Positions 2,838 through 20,177 of a stretch of 23,692 bases of DNA are shown piece after piece (positions within the stretch are counted from its first letter, which is position 1; each line of letters begins with the position of its first letter). The notes beneath the pieces are model-generated. The model was given only the letters and a program-made list of their open reading frames with translations. It was not told the DNA's origin and did no database searches. The stretch is from a virus. The position numbers were made by a program, and so were the translations under genes. The stretch is from the IMG/VR virus record IMGVR_UViG_3300024343_000117, positions 1 through 23,692 of that record, one strand, 5' to 3'.

Positions 2838-3009
2838 AATCTTTATTTTTTAATTTAATTTCTCTCAATTGGTTCCTCCAATAAGCTATTGCTGAATAGA
2901 TATTATCACAATAATCTTGATAATCTATTTCATTAACTTCAGTCTCTTCGAACATATCACAACTCTTTTGTAATTGTCCTATAATCTGTTGTATTTGTTG
3001 TTCCGTCAT
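2818..3009 (-). CDS. hypothetical helical protein, 63 aa
   Basis: Predicted to be almost entirely alpha-helical, with a Gln-rich N-terminal helix (EQQIQQIIGQLQ), an acidic linker and a C-terminal amphipathic helix (YWRNQLREIKLKNKDY). No family is recognised. Its ATG sits 2 bases beyond the stop of the 184-aa gene and its end overlaps the following Cys/His mini-protein by 20 bases. It may be a dimerising accessory factor, but this is a guess from composition. Confidence 0.72.
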   Translation of the reverse strand: MTEQQIQQIIGQLQKSCDMFEETEVNEIDYQDYCDNIYSAIAYWRNQLREIKLKNKDYVRSNN

Positions 3010-3011
3010 GA

Positions 3012-3566
3012 TTACATATAATCTTCGTTACTATATTTATTTTCTGGCACTATACCATCATCAACTAAGAATGAATACTTTTCATGATATCCTTCATTCA
3101 ACCATCTTCTAGCTTCAACCATGTATTCAAGATTACCATTTTTAGTCTTATCCTTAACTTCCTGTTGAAGGACTAAAATAGCTTTTTCTTGAGCCTTGAT
3201 ATCTTTCTTGAAAACTGAATTCCATTTCTTTCTTAATGCTTTGCCCAAAATTGTATTGGGCTTAGAAGGAGATAAAGCTCTTTTACCTCCGTGATGTTTT
3301 TTCACCATTGTAGGATAAGTCTCTAGCCAGATTGCAAAATAATCTTCATCTGCATTGAACAACTCACTACCTTTTTCTCTTAAATAAACTTGATTATTTG
3401 TTAGTTTAACAAAACCTTTACCTTCTAGTGAAACTAGTGTAGGTAAAGGATTGTCAATTAAATCCCCTATTGGATAACCATGAACAATATCATACAATAC
3501 CAAATACTCATTAACAGACATTTTATTAGACCTAATTAGATCTAATGGTAGTGTTAATTCATCCAT
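3012..3566 (-). CDS. possible phage replication-organiser protein (winged-helix N-terminus)
   Basis: Residues 1-80 look like a winged-helix DNA-binding fold: helices around SVNEYLVLYDIV and IGDLIDNPLPTLVSLEGKG, then a wing-like TNNQVYLREKG. The C-terminal part has WLETYPTM and then YMVEARRWLNEG near residue 150. That order recalls phage replisome organisers and lambda O/DnaD-like proteins, where a W-x-x-YP motif is followed by a ..WL(N/S).. signature. It sits between the SF2 helicase and the DnaB-like helicase, a fitting place for an origin-binding or helicase-loading protein. The family match is by eye and moderate; a plain transcription regulator is the main alternative. Confidence 0.55.
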   Translation of the reverse strand: MDELTLPLDLIRSNKMSVNEYLVLYDIVHGYPIGDLIDNPLPTLVSLEGKGFVKLTNNQVYLREKGSELFNADEDYFAIWLETYPTMVKKHHGGKRALSPSKPNTILGKALRKKWNSVFKKDIKAQEKAILVLQQEVKDKTKNGNLEYMVEARRWLNEGYHEKYSFLVDDGIVPENKYSNEDYM

Positions 3567-7408: not shown

Positions 7409-8602
7409 CTAGTTCTTCTTCTTGTTGTTGCTAACTTTCTCAGAAAGTTCATACAATCTCTCTAATTGAAATGTTTGAAGTGCACCTCCACCATTGCCAT
7501 CAGATCCTCCTGATACAATTCTAGGAAATACAATTCCACTTGGGCCAGCTAATGCTTTCATTACTCCAATCCTAGTGTCTCTTTCAATTTGAGCTTTCTC
7601 TAATGGAGATAATCCAGCTTGAACCTTAAGTTTATCACCTTCAGCTTCACCTTTCTTTAAAGCTAATATTGCTGCTGCATTTAACTTATCTCTTTTAAGA
7701 TTTTGTTCTGCTACTGCTGCTTCTTTTTCTGCTCTAATAACTGCTTGAAGTTTAGATGATTCCTCTCTAGCTTTAGTTTCAGCAATTAACTTCTCACCTT
7801 TAGCTTTTTCTGTTAAAGCTTCTTGTTGAGCTGTTATTAATTGTTGTTTAGCTGTAGCTTCATCAGATGCTGCATCAATCTTAGATTTTAATTTCTCATA
7901 AATTCTTGCATCGTATTCAACAAAATCAATTGAACTAAATGAAGCAATCATACCATAAGTTTGAATGTCTGATTGAGTTCTTAAGAAATCTCCATTATCA
8001 TCAGTCTTTTCTTGAACTTTAATGTAAGTCTTTTCTGTACCATCTTCTAGTTTCCTAGTTTTAGTTTCAGTGACTAACAATACTTGCCCTCTACGTAACT
8101 GATCTTGAAAGTATTCCTTTAATTGAGACTGTCCACCACTATAATGAGCTTCAGAAGATAATCTCTGAGTGCTATAATTCATGGTTTCTTTTTGATACTG
8201 CAATAAGGTAGTTTTCATTAAATTATCAATACTATTATATGTAGTATGTAATTCAGTCATTTCAGTACTTTTGTTAGGTAAATCCCACTTAACAGTGTGT
8301 CCAACCATAGCTTGATCACCTTCACTAAATGTGGCAGTGTGCTCAGATGTCCAGTAATCAGCCTCTTCAGACCTTTTTGCTTTAGGACCTACTTGGATAG
8401 TTACATTGTTTGGGTAAGTTGTTACCTTTGATCTGATACCAGCATAGTAAAATCCTGGATCAAACTTAACACTCAAATCTCCTCCAAATGTCTGTATAAC
8501 CTGTCTGTTACCAGCATCATTAATTGCAAATGGATTCAATGCAAATGCTACAATTAATAGCAATCCTACGATCATGTAAATCTTAAACTTTTTGTTTTTC
8601 AT
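7409..8602 (-). CDS. SPFH/band-7 (prohibitin-like) membrane protein
   Basis: Membrane-anchored SPFH-domain protein of 397 residues. A single N-terminal membrane helix (residues about 8-24, IYMIVGLLLIVAFAL) is followed by an SPFH domain (about 30-225, beginning GNRQVIQTFGG..FDPGFYYAG). An Ala/Glu/Lys-rich coiled coil (about 245-330, with TAKQQLITAQQEALTEKAK) follows, then a Gly-rich region. In bacteria this family forms ring or cage oligomers that organise membranes and control FtsH-type proteases, so a phage copy could protect phage proteins or remodel the envelope (inference). It is monocistronic: a terminator lies downstream and 1 kb of structured RNA lies upstream. Confidence 0.88.
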   Translation of the reverse strand: MKNKKFKIYMIVGLLLIVAFALNPFAINDAGNRQVIQTFGGDLSVKFDPGFYYAGIRSKVTTYPNNVTIQVGPKAKRSEEADYWTSEHTATFSEGDQAMVGHTVKWDLPNKSTEMTELHTTYNSIDNLMKTTLLQYQKETMNYSTQRLSSEAHYSGGQSQLKEYFQDQLRRGQVLLVTETKTRKLEDGTEKTYIKVQEKTDDNGDFLRTQSDIQTYGMIASFSSIDFVEYDARIYEKLKSKIDAASDEATAKQQLITAQQEALTEKAKGEKLIAETKAREESSKLQAVIRAEKEAAVAEQNLKRDKLNAAAILALKKGEAEGDKLKVQAGLSPLEKAQIERDTRIGVMKALAGPSGIVFPRIVSGGSDGNGGGALQTFQLERLYELSEKVSNNKKKN

Positions 8603-8631
8603 TTTTTAATTATTTTTATAATATTAATATT

Positions 8632-8937
8632 TTAGCACCCTTTCCCATTATTGTATTCAACTCTATCCTTGATAGAGGCAATAATGAGGGTTGGGTCATG
8701 TTTCACTGTTATTATTACCCTCGACACGAGCACTATCTATCTGCTTGATAATAATAATAACAATGTTTTTCTGCTGAGAACTCATTTCTACTGCAAACGG
8801 TAGTTAGTTTGGCACTCTCATCCTTTCTCAAGGGACCAGTAAATCTAGCATTCCTGCCAGTATCTTTATATAAATAACAAAGAAGTTTTAACGCTTCCGA
8901 CAAATGTTATTTATACAGGTATTCAATGTTTAACCTT
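8632..8937 (-). ncRNA. structured RNA module, copy 1
   Basis: No ORF spans this stretch. It shares five motifs in the same order with copy 2: TAGCACCCT (8633), TGCTGAGAACTCATTT (8771-8786), TTTCTCAAGG (8824-8833), GTATCTTTAT (8860-8869) and TTCAATGTTTAACCTT (8922-8937). On the minus strand CCTTGAGAAAGG folds into a GAGA-tetraloop hairpin. Flanking long stems pair ATAAATAACA (near 8865) with TGTTATTTAT (near 8908), and CCCATTATTG with CAATAATG (8643-8688). No Rfam family is recognised. It ends just upstream of the SPFH gene and may also form that gene's leader. Confidence 0.65.
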
Positions 8938-8939
8938 AT

Positions 8940-9442
8940 TTAGCACCCTCTTTCTTATTAGATGTTTTCTGTTCTCGTTTATTTCAACGCTTGTGAATTT
9001 CACACTGTAATCTAATAAGAGTAGGGTCACGTAGTTAAGTCATTGACATAAAGATAGAATCAAATCTATCTCAGTTAAAAGGTTATACCTATCTCCCTTA
9101 ATCAAAACTACTTGCTGAGAACTCATTTGTGTTGTATAGAACCAATATTCTATTCTTGTATTTGACGGTATGCACTTTCTCAAGGTGTACAACACATCCA
9201 GGATTACTCCATTACTTACGTATTAATAGGTTACTGTATTAGCCTTCACCTATAATTACCATTTACCAAGTAGAACAATCTAATTTCTTTCTACACCTTA
9301 TTAGAGCCTCTTCACTCTTTCCTCAGTAACATCCTGTCAATTCAGGATTAGTATCTTTATGTAAATGTACGGGTCAAACCCTCTTTCATACAGCATTACC
9401 TGTTAATGGACTACATTTACAAAGGTTTCAATGTTTAACCTT
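8940..9442 (-). ncRNA. structured RNA module, copy 2 (with insertion)
   Basis: The same framework as copy 1: TAGCACCCT (8941-8949), TGCTGAGAACTCATTT (9113-9128), TTTCTCAAGG (9176-9185), GTATCTTTAT (9351-9360) and TTCAATGTTTAACCTT (9427-9442). Corresponding stems keep pairing with different bases: CTTATTAGAT near 8952 with ATCTAATAAG near 9012, and GTAAATGTA (9361) with TACATTTAC (9412). An extra ~190 bases between the last two stems hold a 25-base segment (9304-9328) that recurs at 15285-15309. Stems that pair in both copies despite sequence change suggest selection on RNA structure. Function unknown. Confidence 0.65.
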
Positions 9443-9524
9443 TATTTTTAGTGCTTAAATGCACAATTATGTCTCTGCTCCAGCCTATACAGTAGAAGCA
9501 TTGACATTTTGATTTATTATCCAT
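9435..9524 (-). CDS. possible Cys-rich micro-protein, 29 aa
   Basis: A 29-residue ORF starting at the ATG at 9524, which overlaps the stop of the 31-aa membrane ORF. It contains CQCFYC (Cys7, 9, 12), a compact metal-binding pattern, and a basic C-terminus. Its last bases run into the conserved edge of RNA module copy 2. Length is at the limit of credibility, and it could equally be chance coding within a structured RNA. Confidence 0.35.
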   Translation of the reverse strand: MDNKSKCQCFYCIGWSRDIIVHLSTKNKG

Positions 9525-9612
9525 TTATTATTATTCCATTAAATAAATTTGCAAACAGCAAATATAATATAACTATTGCTATAGCTAAAGTTATTGACTC
9601 TTTTTTTTCCAT
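9517..9612 (-). CDS. possible single-pass membrane micro-protein, 31 aa
   Basis: The ATG at 9612 starts a 31-residue peptide, MEKKES followed by a hydrophobic helix (TLAIAIVILYLLFANLF) and a short tail. It starts 18 bases after the stop of the DnaA-like gene and overlaps the next micro-ORF. Position and membrane character resemble other mini-proteins in the window, but no family is recognised. Confidence 0.45.
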   Translation of the reverse strand: MEKKESITLAIAIVILYLLFANLFNGIIING

Positions 9613-9630
9613 AATTAATGGTGTTAAATA

Positions 9631-10140
9631 TTAAATACCTTCACCACCAGTAAAGATGTAACTCCCAGAGCCAGCAACTTCCCTAGAAATAGCAATGTTT
9701 TTTTGACTTCTTGCTTCGACATGATTTCCTAATGCTTTTAAAAATTCTGCTTTAAAGAATAAGTACTTTGTACTATCCATTTCATTTATTTCCTCTTTGA
9801 ATCTTAATAGAAAATCTGTAACATTTGAATGCTCATCTCTACTATTATCAATTTCAAGTTTGATATCGTAATATCCGTCTTTAAATTTCCTGAAATCTAA
9901 TTGATTAAATAAATCTGCAAACTTGTTCTTTCCATGTAATACTGTAGCATGGTCTACTTTTGCTTGCCTTCCTATGGCTGTCAATGAATATCCTTCATCC
10001 AATCCTAATCTGTAGAAGACATATCTTGCCCACACATAACCAGTTTCTCTTGTTTTCTTTGATATATCATTGATCTTAAAATACTTACCTACTAAATCTT
10101 GTAGTGTTTTTAAGCTAAGTTCACTTCCTTTTTTACTCAT
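9631..10140 (-). CDS. stand-alone DnaA domain IV-like DNA-binding protein
   Basis: Residues 5-80 match the DnaA C-terminal helix-turn-helix domain that reads DnaA boxes: VGKYFKINDISKKTR, WARYVFYRLGLDE, YSLTAIGRQAKVDHATVLHGKNK. The signature loop DHATVLHG (63-70) corresponds to bacterial DHTTVLHA. No AAA+ ATPase domain is present; the remaining 90 residues are unrecognised and end in Gly-rich GSGSYIFTGGEG. Known domain function is sequence-specific DNA binding. In a phage this could mark the phage origin, compete with host DnaA, or regulate genes (inference). It overlaps the 124-aa gene by one base. Confidence 0.85.
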   Translation of the reverse strand: MSKKGSELSLKTLQDLVGKYFKINDISKKTRETGYVWARYVFYRLGLDEGYSLTAIGRQAKVDHATVLHGKNKFADLFNQLDFRKFKDGYYDIKLEIDNSRDEHSNVTDFLLRFKEEINEMDSTKYLFFKAEFLKALGNHVEARSQKNIAISREVAGSGSYIFTGGEGI

Positions 10141-11201: not shown

Positions 11202-11302
11202 AGAGGTAGATAGGATTTGAACCTATACAAAAACATTGACTAGTTATCTTTGTTTTTATCATTCCCAAACGGGAATATGCTTTACCAATTTGCTACTACC
11301 TC
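11202..11302 (-). tRNA. tRNA-like element, anticodon arm aberrant
   Basis: Read on the minus strand it has a perfect 7-bp acceptor stem (GAGGTAG with CTACCTC), TA at 8-9, a D-arm with TTGGT, and a canonical T-arm (ATAGG TTCAAAT CCTAT). The anticodon position is taken by a near-perfect hairpin, ATTCCC-GTTT-GGGAAT, with only a 4- to 6-base loop, and no normal 7-base anticodon loop can be drawn. A 30-base variable region follows with an AAAAAC/GTTTTT stem. It may be a decayed tRNA or a tRNA mimic recognised by RNase P or EF-Tu. I cannot assign an amino acid. Confidence 0.6.
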
Positions 11303-13190: not shown

Positions 13191-13625
13191 TTAAATGCAA
13201 GAGTTTAGATTATATAAATCTAAGTCTGATGCAATCAATTCATCTGTAAATACTCCTTCAGAGAGTTCTACATCTCTGTATAATCTTTCATTGTTAAAAT
13301 AGAATGAAGTATAATAATGATCATCTGAATTCATAGATGATACTCTTATTCTTAATACTTCAGTATTACTCTCTACTATTTCAATATTCTGAACAGTAGA
13401 TATATCTATCAATGTGTAACATACTTCAGTTTCTGATATTGATCTTCCACTTGCTTGAACATATTCTCCTTCTTCATTAAACTTAAAATAGTTTAATGAT
13501 GATTCTACTTTCCAGCTTTCTTGAGCCGATAACTTGTCTAAAACATTTAGTTCTAGATCTGTGTTTTTTTCACAACAACTCATTATTGTTATGATAATAA
13601 TAAATAATGGTAATAACTTTTTCAT
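13191..13625 (-). CDS. lipoprotein, 144 aa
   Basis: An N-terminal signal for lipid modification: MKKLLPLFIIIITIMSC, with the lipobox IMSC placing the modified Cys at 17. The mature part is acidic, with beta-type patterns (YTLIDISTVQNIEIVESNTEVLRIRVSS, DDHYYTSFYFNNE). It is therefore secreted and anchored in a membrane. No enzyme motif is seen. Phage lipoproteins often block superinfection or modify the host surface, but that is inference. A second lipoprotein gene lies 27 bases upstream. Confidence 0.8.
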   Translation of the reverse strand: MKKLLPLFIIIITIMSCCEKNTDLELNVLDKLSAQESWKVESSLNYFKFNEEGEYVQASGRSISETEVCYTLIDISTVQNIEIVESNTEVLRIRVSSMNSDDHYYTSFYFNNERLYRDVELSEGVFTDELIASDLDLYNLNSCI

Positions 13626-19694: not shown

Positions 19695-20177
19695 TTAATC
19701 TTCTAATATCACCCAGTCATCAGCAAGTGCATCACTACCACTAGGACTCCACATAGCAATATCCCCTTGAACAGTCTTAAGAGCTAAGTACCCTCTGTAC
19801 TGTACAGTTTCTCCAATTGATATTGCAACATCAGTAACTGACTTGTACCTAGCTGCAGGAACATAGTATAGAAACATACCATTACCATTCCATCCTAATC
19901 TAGTAACTTTCCTACCTTTCTTCAATGCTTCAATAGCAAATCCAAATGGTAATCCATCTGTCTCCCTGTAAGCTTCTTCAAATACATTCTTGGGACTCCA
20001 AGATACATACCCATCATGATTCTGATGATTTTTACCAGATCCGTTGATGTACTCAACTAAGTATCCTTCATCTTCTCCATTCTCATCAGATGGCAACTCC
20101 CATCCTCTGTAACCATTATAATCTAACCTATTCATAGGTCTTGCTTTAATTTCTTTTACTCCAATGTAATTCTTCAT
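19695..20177 (-). CDS. DUF2829/Tad2-type protein with N-terminal phage domain
   Basis: The C-terminal half matches DUF2829: FGFAIEALKKGRKVTRLGWNGNGMFLYYVPA (about 76-106), a strand GYLALKTVQGDIAMWSP, and the closing DALADDWVILED. This family includes Tad2 (Thoeris anti-defence 2), which sequesters the signal gcADPR and so blocks Thoeris immunity; some relatives bind other cyclic nucleotides. The N-terminal 75 residues (IGVKEIKARPMNRLDYNGYRGW..DEGYLVEY..SWSPKNVFEEAY) form a conserved extra domain often fused to it in phages. The ligand of this copy is inferred only. It has a promoter candidate at 20200-20207 and its own terminator. Confidence 0.85.
   Translation of the reverse strand: MKNYIGVKEIKARPMNRLDYNGYRGWELPSDENGEDEGYLVEYINGSGKNHQNHDGYVSWSPKNVFEEAYRETDGLPFGFAIEALKKGRKVTRLGWNGNGMFLYYVPAARYKSVTDVAISIGETVQYRGYLALKTVQGDIAMWSPSGSDALADDWVILED

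Follow-up and report, generated by a model that had tools for sequence, protein, structure and literature searches.

The window locus and its tandem RNA copies

The stretch of DNA analysed here (the window; 23,692 nucleotides of an IMG/VR virus record) most likely belongs to a crAss-like phage, since the closest annotated relatives of its DnaB and SPFH sequences come mainly from such phages. Between a DnaA-like gene (9631-10140, minus strand; a PF08299 match that falls slightly short of the curated cut-off) and an SPFH gene (7409-8602, minus strand) lies a region without a convincing ORF, in which five motifs recur twice. Read along the RNA (minus) strand, both copies have them in the order AAGGTTAAACATTGAA, ATAAAGATAC, CCTTGAGAAA, AAATGAGTTCTCAGCA and AGGGTGCTA. 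The upstream copy by transcription is a long form of 502 nt (copy 2, 8941-9442) and the downstream copy a short form of 305 nt (copy 1, 8633-8937), about 30 nt past which the SPFH gene starts; motifs, order and spans are exactly those given in the initial annotation. The tandem pair is present in two further assemblies of the phage at 99.97% identity and is thus not an assembly artefact of the window contig. The window phage carries two diverged forms of the RNA in tandem, one short and one long, with all core helices kept in both by different bases. Just upstream of the RNA region is a 31-codon ORF (9516-9611, minus strand) for a putative small membrane peptide (MEKKESITLAIAIVILYLLFANLFNGIIING), and elsewhere the window encodes a protein with a Tad2-like (Thoeris anti-defence 2) domain (19695-20177, minus strand; E = 2.5e-22).

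A constant pseudoknotted core supported by covariation

The constant core comprises the P1 hairpin with a fixed loop, P2, a fixed AUAAAGAUA joint, a GNRA-capped P3, and P4 enclosing P4a, the loop of which forms a pseudoknot; P5, P6 and a fixed GCUAA tail follow (all window coordinates below are on the minus strand). The P1 hairpin (copy 2: AAGGU...ACCUU, 9422-9442; copy 1: AGGU at 8936-8933 with ACCU at 8920-8917, spanning 8917-8936) carries the family's fixed loop UAAACAUUGA in both copies, while the stem covaries in the family by compensated pairs (for example GC to CG). P2 closes a variable loop in copy 2 (9361-9420; GUAAAUGUA at 9420-9412 with UACAUUUAC at 9369-9361), and in copy 1 (8869-8915; UAUAAAUAAC at 8915-8906 with GUUAUUUAUA at 8878-8869) it is also part of the minimum-energy fold. 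The long form differs by a domain inserted between the AUAAAGAUA joint and P3 (9211-9350; AAUCCUGAAUUGACAGGAU ... AAU). This is the extra domain previously described as an insertion of about 190 bases in copy 2; rather than a one-off, it is a recurrent optional domain found in many other loci (L004, L037, L056, L062, L071, L074, L077, L081, L096 and others).

P3 is a GGA-GUAA-UCC hairpin in copy 2 (9201-9210) and a longer CUGGC-A-GGAA-U-GCUAG hairpin in copy 1 (8845-8860, tetraloop GGAA at 8854-8851), its GNRA cap being conserved in the family as GUAA, GAGA, GAAA, GUGA or GGAA with few exceptions. P4 pairs UGUGUUG (9196-9190) with CAACACA (9134-9128) in copy 2 (9128-9196), enclosing the P4a hairpin CAC/GUG (9187-9185 with 9175-9173). 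In copy 1 (8787-8843) the covariance-model alignment places P4, likewise enclosing P4a, at UUUACUG (8843-8837) and CAGUAGA (8793-8787), a pairing that differs from the family consensus UGUGUUG/CAACACA. The hairpin within P4 had been taken for a conserved GAGA tetraloop, but CUUGAGAAA is a 9-nt loop and not GNRA; it is P3, the hairpin before it, that bears the true GNRA cap (GGAA in copy 1, GUAA in copy 2). The UUGAGAA of the 9-nt loop pairs instead with a downstream UUCUCAG to form the pseudoknot (copy 2: 9183-9177 with 9121-9115, spanning 9115-9183; copy 1: 8831-8825 with 8780-8774, spanning 8774-8831).

P5 (copy 2: 9031-9111, GUAGUU at 9111-9106 with AACUAC at 9036-9031, supported by partner swaps; copy 1: 8708-8761, GUUAUUAUUA at 8761-8752 with UAAUAAUAAC at 8717-8708) is compensated between the copies and is optional in the family, being missing in some members (for example G042). 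P6 is closed by ACCCU (9027-9023) and AGGGU (8949-8945) in copy 2 (8945-9027), with further arms CUUAUUAGAU and AUCUAAUAAG (8963-8954) for which P6b beats 200 of 200 partner swaps, and by ACCC (8696-8693) and GGGU (8640-8637) in copy 1 (8637-8696), where CAUUAUUG (8686-8679) pairs with CAAUAAUG (8653-8646), with an inner CUCUAUC/GAUAGAG. Stems at matching places had been proposed to pair with differing bases in the two copies, and these compensatory arms are real in both P2 (copy 1 TATAAATAAC/GTTATTTATA, copy 2 GTAAATGTA/TACATTTAC) and P6 (copy 1 CATTATTG/CAATAATG, copy 2 CTTATTAGAT/ATCTAATAAG).

Across 31 sequences from the family, the named base pairs have 97.9% of their cells paired. Both sides change in 15 of the 23 pairs (6.6 on average in shuffles), and the covariation score is 0.37 compared with 0.12 in shuffles. 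None of 500 shuffles matches the real values for pairing, double changes or covariation score, slid-register controls are only 37–47% paired, and an unsupervised scan recovers the same helices. Double changes occur in 5 of 5 pairs of P3 and 6 of 7 pairs of P4, which exists across phages as UGUGUUG/CAACACA, ACGUGAG/CUCACGU and CGCAUU/GAUGCG. When 76 members are considered, the helices beat 200 of 200 partner swaps, P6a by a small margin only. In the pseudoknot, UUGAGAA/UUCUCAG is paired in 98.2% of cells (31 sequences) with GU swaps only and zero double changes; as it is nearly invariant, its support comes from conservation and not from covariation. A long-range AGCA/UGCU helix joining the first and last motifs (A to E) was dropped, as the G of UGCU changes to A or U without a change at its partner. 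Single-sequence folding of the two copies (z = -2.5 and -2.2) is only moderately informative because the fold includes a pseudoknot.

The region does not behave as coding sequence. Motif spacings are evenly spread modulo 3 (29/29/29), as expected of a noncoding region, and the longest ORFs are as in shuffles, so no conserved frame is seen. Together with the covariation across phages and the lack of an Rfam match described below, this bears out the initial proposal of an unassigned ornate RNA and makes it close to certain that the RNA represents a new, widespread family of structured noncoding RNAs of phages.

Outside the core the RNA is variable. The peripheral hairpins are interchangeable, the same hairpin occurring in P2 of one member (L101) and in P5 of two others (L107 and L078), and the variable loops contain long identical stretches common to otherwise different members. 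T-arm-like hairpins are present in 7 of 87 members (10 hairpins, about 1 in shuffles). Some members have a 45-nt three-way-junction element (AAUAGCUAAGCUGUGUAAAGC...AGAAGCUA) that always directly abuts P1, at a fixed 26–27 nt from the fixed loop, in 18 locus entries, some of them on the same contig (L006, L029, L032, L046, L068, L082, L120, L132, L163, L176 and others); it resembles a tRNA without a T-arm. Other 5′ elements also recur (L016/L025/L121/L164/L191; L069/L162/L196; L056/L077/L112/L195). In the window, two hairpins with a stable predicted fold just upstream of copy 2 (9449-9507; AUGUC..UGCUUC/GGAGCA..GACAU and GUGC/GCAC) may tentatively be regarded as a variable 5′ domain; no relatives of this stretch were found, and its fold is unrelated to the 5′ elements of other members.

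Distribution across phages and relation to known RNAs

The ordered motifs recur, with variable spacing, in more than 120 IMG/VR contigs, well above anything chance would produce; pattern scans with single motifs and motif pairs gave about 190 loci, most of them with every motif in that order, and the two-motif scan gave 80. A covariance model (R1; 108 positions with 16 base pairs) trained on 31 sequences, the window left out, matches both window copies (copy 1: 8772-8872, 86.9 bits, E = 1.2e-14; copy 2: 9113-9222, 64.1 bits, E = 2.3e-10) and, of 192 loci fetched, confirms 167, almost all of them on viral contigs. Among 50 whole records, 48 match R1, 46 of these with one copy and two, including the window's own phage, with two; a single copy per genome is usual and the tandem pair exceptional. 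Pairs of non-adjacent copies (L012, 8186-8296 and 11153-11265; L183/G045, 8106-8225 and 13267-13386) indicate that duplication happened more than once.

The carriers are many phages of Bacteroidota-type bacteria, including crAss-like phages and phages with 250–370 kb genomes. An exact pattern match occurs in just one of 84,980 genomes of bacteria and archaea, on a contig of a Sphingobacteriales MAG, and the RNA was not found in the plasmids searched. Only one annotated phage was found with it, the cultured Cellulophaga phage phi14:2, which is crAss-like (Crassvirales, Steigviridae) and whose single copy (plus strand, about 2911-3358) lies opposite three tiny annotated ORFs. These (gp007-gp009; KC821624.1 3106-3431, minus strand; hypothetical proteins of about 33–39 aa) overlap the RNA or its 3′ end in antisense and are unlikely to be genes, the RNA having been misannotated. 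Prevotella Lak phages were dropped as carriers: the BLAST match is a chance one inside coding sequence, and the covariance model finds none. An unfiltered model search of crAss001 and two other crAss-like or crAss-related regions likewise found no copy in those regions.

No known family accounts for the RNA. Rfam 15 was searched with the window at gathering thresholds, with 8580-9640 permissively at E ≤ 10 and with three other loci (L046, L087, L153) at E ≤ 1; no family matches the RNA or either window copy, and only tRNA and tmRNA were significant. The literature searched (an open-access subset) held no description of its motifs. The alternative that the initial annotation had considered fitting, a described family gone unrecognised, for instance ROOL or GOLLD, is not supported, although both resemble the RNA in setting. 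GOLLD lies near phage tRNA islands and can follow a tRNA directly (PMC12286853), and like the new RNA is phage-encoded, large and structured, with a conserved region and variable domains, whereas the core of the new RNA is shorter (about 300–500 nt), folds differently and lacks any sequence or covariance match. The GOLLD model (RF02032, gathering 150 bits) finds nothing in 8580-9640 even with the threshold relaxed to E ≤ 10, but matches elsewhere in two RNA-bearing genomes (G042 and G027), showing that the model works. GOLLD is a separate gene in both genomes, in G042 3.4 kb from the new RNA within one tRNA array, and the two are therefore distinct. ROOL is a phage or prophage RNA with pseudoknots and a variable linker, is also found near tRNA islands and is abundant yet non-essential in one strain (PMC12286853). 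Its model (RF03087, gathering 99.1 bits) matches neither the window at gathering nor 8580-9640 at E ≤ 10, nor any of the 48 RNA-bearing records, where the result is weaker because the positive control was silent. Both GOLLD and ROOL form RNA nanocages of unknown function (PMC12286853).

The tmRNA is likewise a structured RNA with pseudoknots, and in these phages it frequently comes next on the strand of the RNA, but the new RNA has no tRNA-like CCA end, tag ORF or covariance match, is not matched as tmRNA by Rfam (RF00023) or ARAGORN, and coexists with tmRNA in at least 24 of 48 records. A catalytic RNA, perhaps a ribozyme that processes tRNA arrays, or a degenerate selfish intron or intron-derived element would fit the compact core with its pseudoknot, GNRA docking element and conserved joints, as well as the position between tRNAs. 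We consider this improbable, as no Rfam model of group I or II introns, RNase P RNA or known ribozymes, including self-cleaving ones, matches even permissively (8580-9640 at E ≤ 10; L046, L087 and L153 at E ≤ 1), and the RNA lies between intact genes, interrupting none, in a single copy per genome, unlike a mobile intron. YrlA and Y RNAs are structured noncoding RNAs with tRNA-like parts in bacteria and phages, and the related phage crAss001 has a TROVE gene beside a tRNA-bearing noncoding gap in the same neighbourhood, which could suggest a Y RNA-like partner of a phage Ro/TROVE protein. Yet TROVE (PF05731) is found in 0 of the 48 RNA-bearing records while the control genome is positive, and crAss001 has TROVE but no copy of the RNA in the region searched, making this reading very improbable indeed. 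The crAss001 gap itself (L232, 1680-2610, downstream of the TROVE gene) contains tRNA-like sequences interrupted by very long insertions (one of them is scored as a tRNA of 144 nt) and a motif (TTACTTCAA) repeated four times.

Association with tRNA and tmRNA genes and possible function

While the SPFH/DnaA-like setting emphasized in the initial annotation is true of the window, it is peculiar to the window phage, and the general setting is one of tRNA and tmRNA genes. Among the 48 RNA-bearing records, 39 have tRNAs over the Rfam cut-off and 24 a tmRNA, which is on the strand of the RNA in 23 of the 24. The tmRNA lies within 500 nt downstream of the RNA in 8 of 24 records (0.05 expected) and within 8 kb of it in 16 of 24 (0.76 expected), numbers that are somewhat less independent than they appear, as the records are related. 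Where a tRNA or tmRNA lies within 300 nt it is always on the same strand, with gaps of 1–6 nt in several loci. Such adjacency holds for only about one quarter to one third of loci; elsewhere, as in the window, about 2 kb separate the RNA from its nearest tRNA, and in jumbo phages the RNA is about 100 kb from the tmRNA. A viral contig of G042 has one array (C1:42319-51629, locus L228) in which the new RNA and GOLLD stand on one strand with a tmRNA and at least 24 tRNAs; a tRNA-Thr ends 2 nt before the new RNA. A window tRNA of 101 nt (11202-11302, minus strand) is called by Rfam and not reported by ARAGORN, pointing to an insertion within it; similarly long tRNAs occur in L005, L022 and L047.

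The RNA lies directly before the SPFH start codon in the window, and SPFH-like genes adjoin it in some other loci, as might be expected of a cis-regulatory leader (a riboswitch or thermosensor) of the downstream gene. However, the recurrent SPFH-like genes sit upstream of the RNA, downstream genes differ between phages, and in L082, L153 and L173 a tRNA or tmRNA gene follows the RNA at 5–6 nt. No neighbouring protein family is constant among the family loci, the commonest being found on either side at variable distance, which argues against a role in cis, and we regard a leader as highly unlikely. Side by side with the RNA, SPFH-like lipoproteins (phrog_200) occur in about 10 loci; upstream of it, a protein bearing a von Willebrand A-like DFSGSM motif recurs at 10 loci, L082 among them, and a MoxR-like ATPase at 6, L164 included.

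Action in trans, as a member of the tRNA/tmRNA neighbourhood, is well supported. Our preferred explanation, to which we assign a probability of about 60%, is that the trans-acting RNA is matured with tRNAs and works on translation, resembling GOLLD and ROOL in life-style while being unrelated to them. The RNA would be transcribed with, or like, tRNAs. Where it lies beside tRNA or tmRNA genes, tRNA-type processing by RNase P and RNase Z or exonucleases would release its ends, and the 1–6 nt gaps to adjoining genes suggest that the mature RNA ends at P1 and just past GCUAA. Away from such genes it would have its own host-type promoter. A Bacteroidota-type -7 element (TAnnTTTGC) occurs within 150 nt upstream in 9 of 87 members, compared with 1 of 87 on the opposite strand and 2.1% of random stretches, and in L100 it ends 8 nt before P1. 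The window has a candidate -7 element (TATATTTGC, approximately 9559-9567, minus strand) 116 nt before P1 of copy 2, overlapping the 31-aa ORF. Acting as a stable RNA, the molecule may take on a compact fold, held by its pseudoknot and by GNRA docking, with peripheral hairpins contacting partners. Given the location by tRNA and tmRNA genes, translation during infection (the ribosome, tRNA or tmRNA) would be the most likely place of action.

The mosaic peripheral hairpins, which shift between positions, could alternatively mark an anti-defence decoy, with the core as a chassis and swappable hairpins as baits that titrate or inhibit host defence proteins such as tRNA nucleases. The T-arm-like hairpins in 7 of 87 members, the location in tRNA arrays and the two forms in the window, which would widen the range of a single phage, are consistent with such a role. 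Core conservation is nonetheless far above what a mere chassis needs, the tRNA-like pieces are a minority, and loop turnover is common in structured RNAs without conflict, so that we consider a decoy unlikely. A broader proposal, which we advance tentatively and with less confidence than the translation reading, is a new class of phage RNA machine, without kinship to described families, in which a constant pseudoknotted core with plug-in hairpins acts on translation (ribosome, tRNA or tmRNA) or on the host's tRNA-directed defence, possibly as an RNA-only assembly; in that case the two diverged forms in the window phage would serve as its short and long subunits.

It is rare to find a large structured RNA outside Rfam that has so many members and covaries so strongly. 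A covariance model would allow annotation of the RNA in viromes, and since phi14:2 is cultured and carries a single, misannotated copy, the RNA is testable now. With the new RNA and GOLLD present together in two genomes, the occurrence of unrelated ornate RNAs in the tRNA islands of phages becomes a recurring theme, and the family bears on the question of what such tRNA-island RNAs do.
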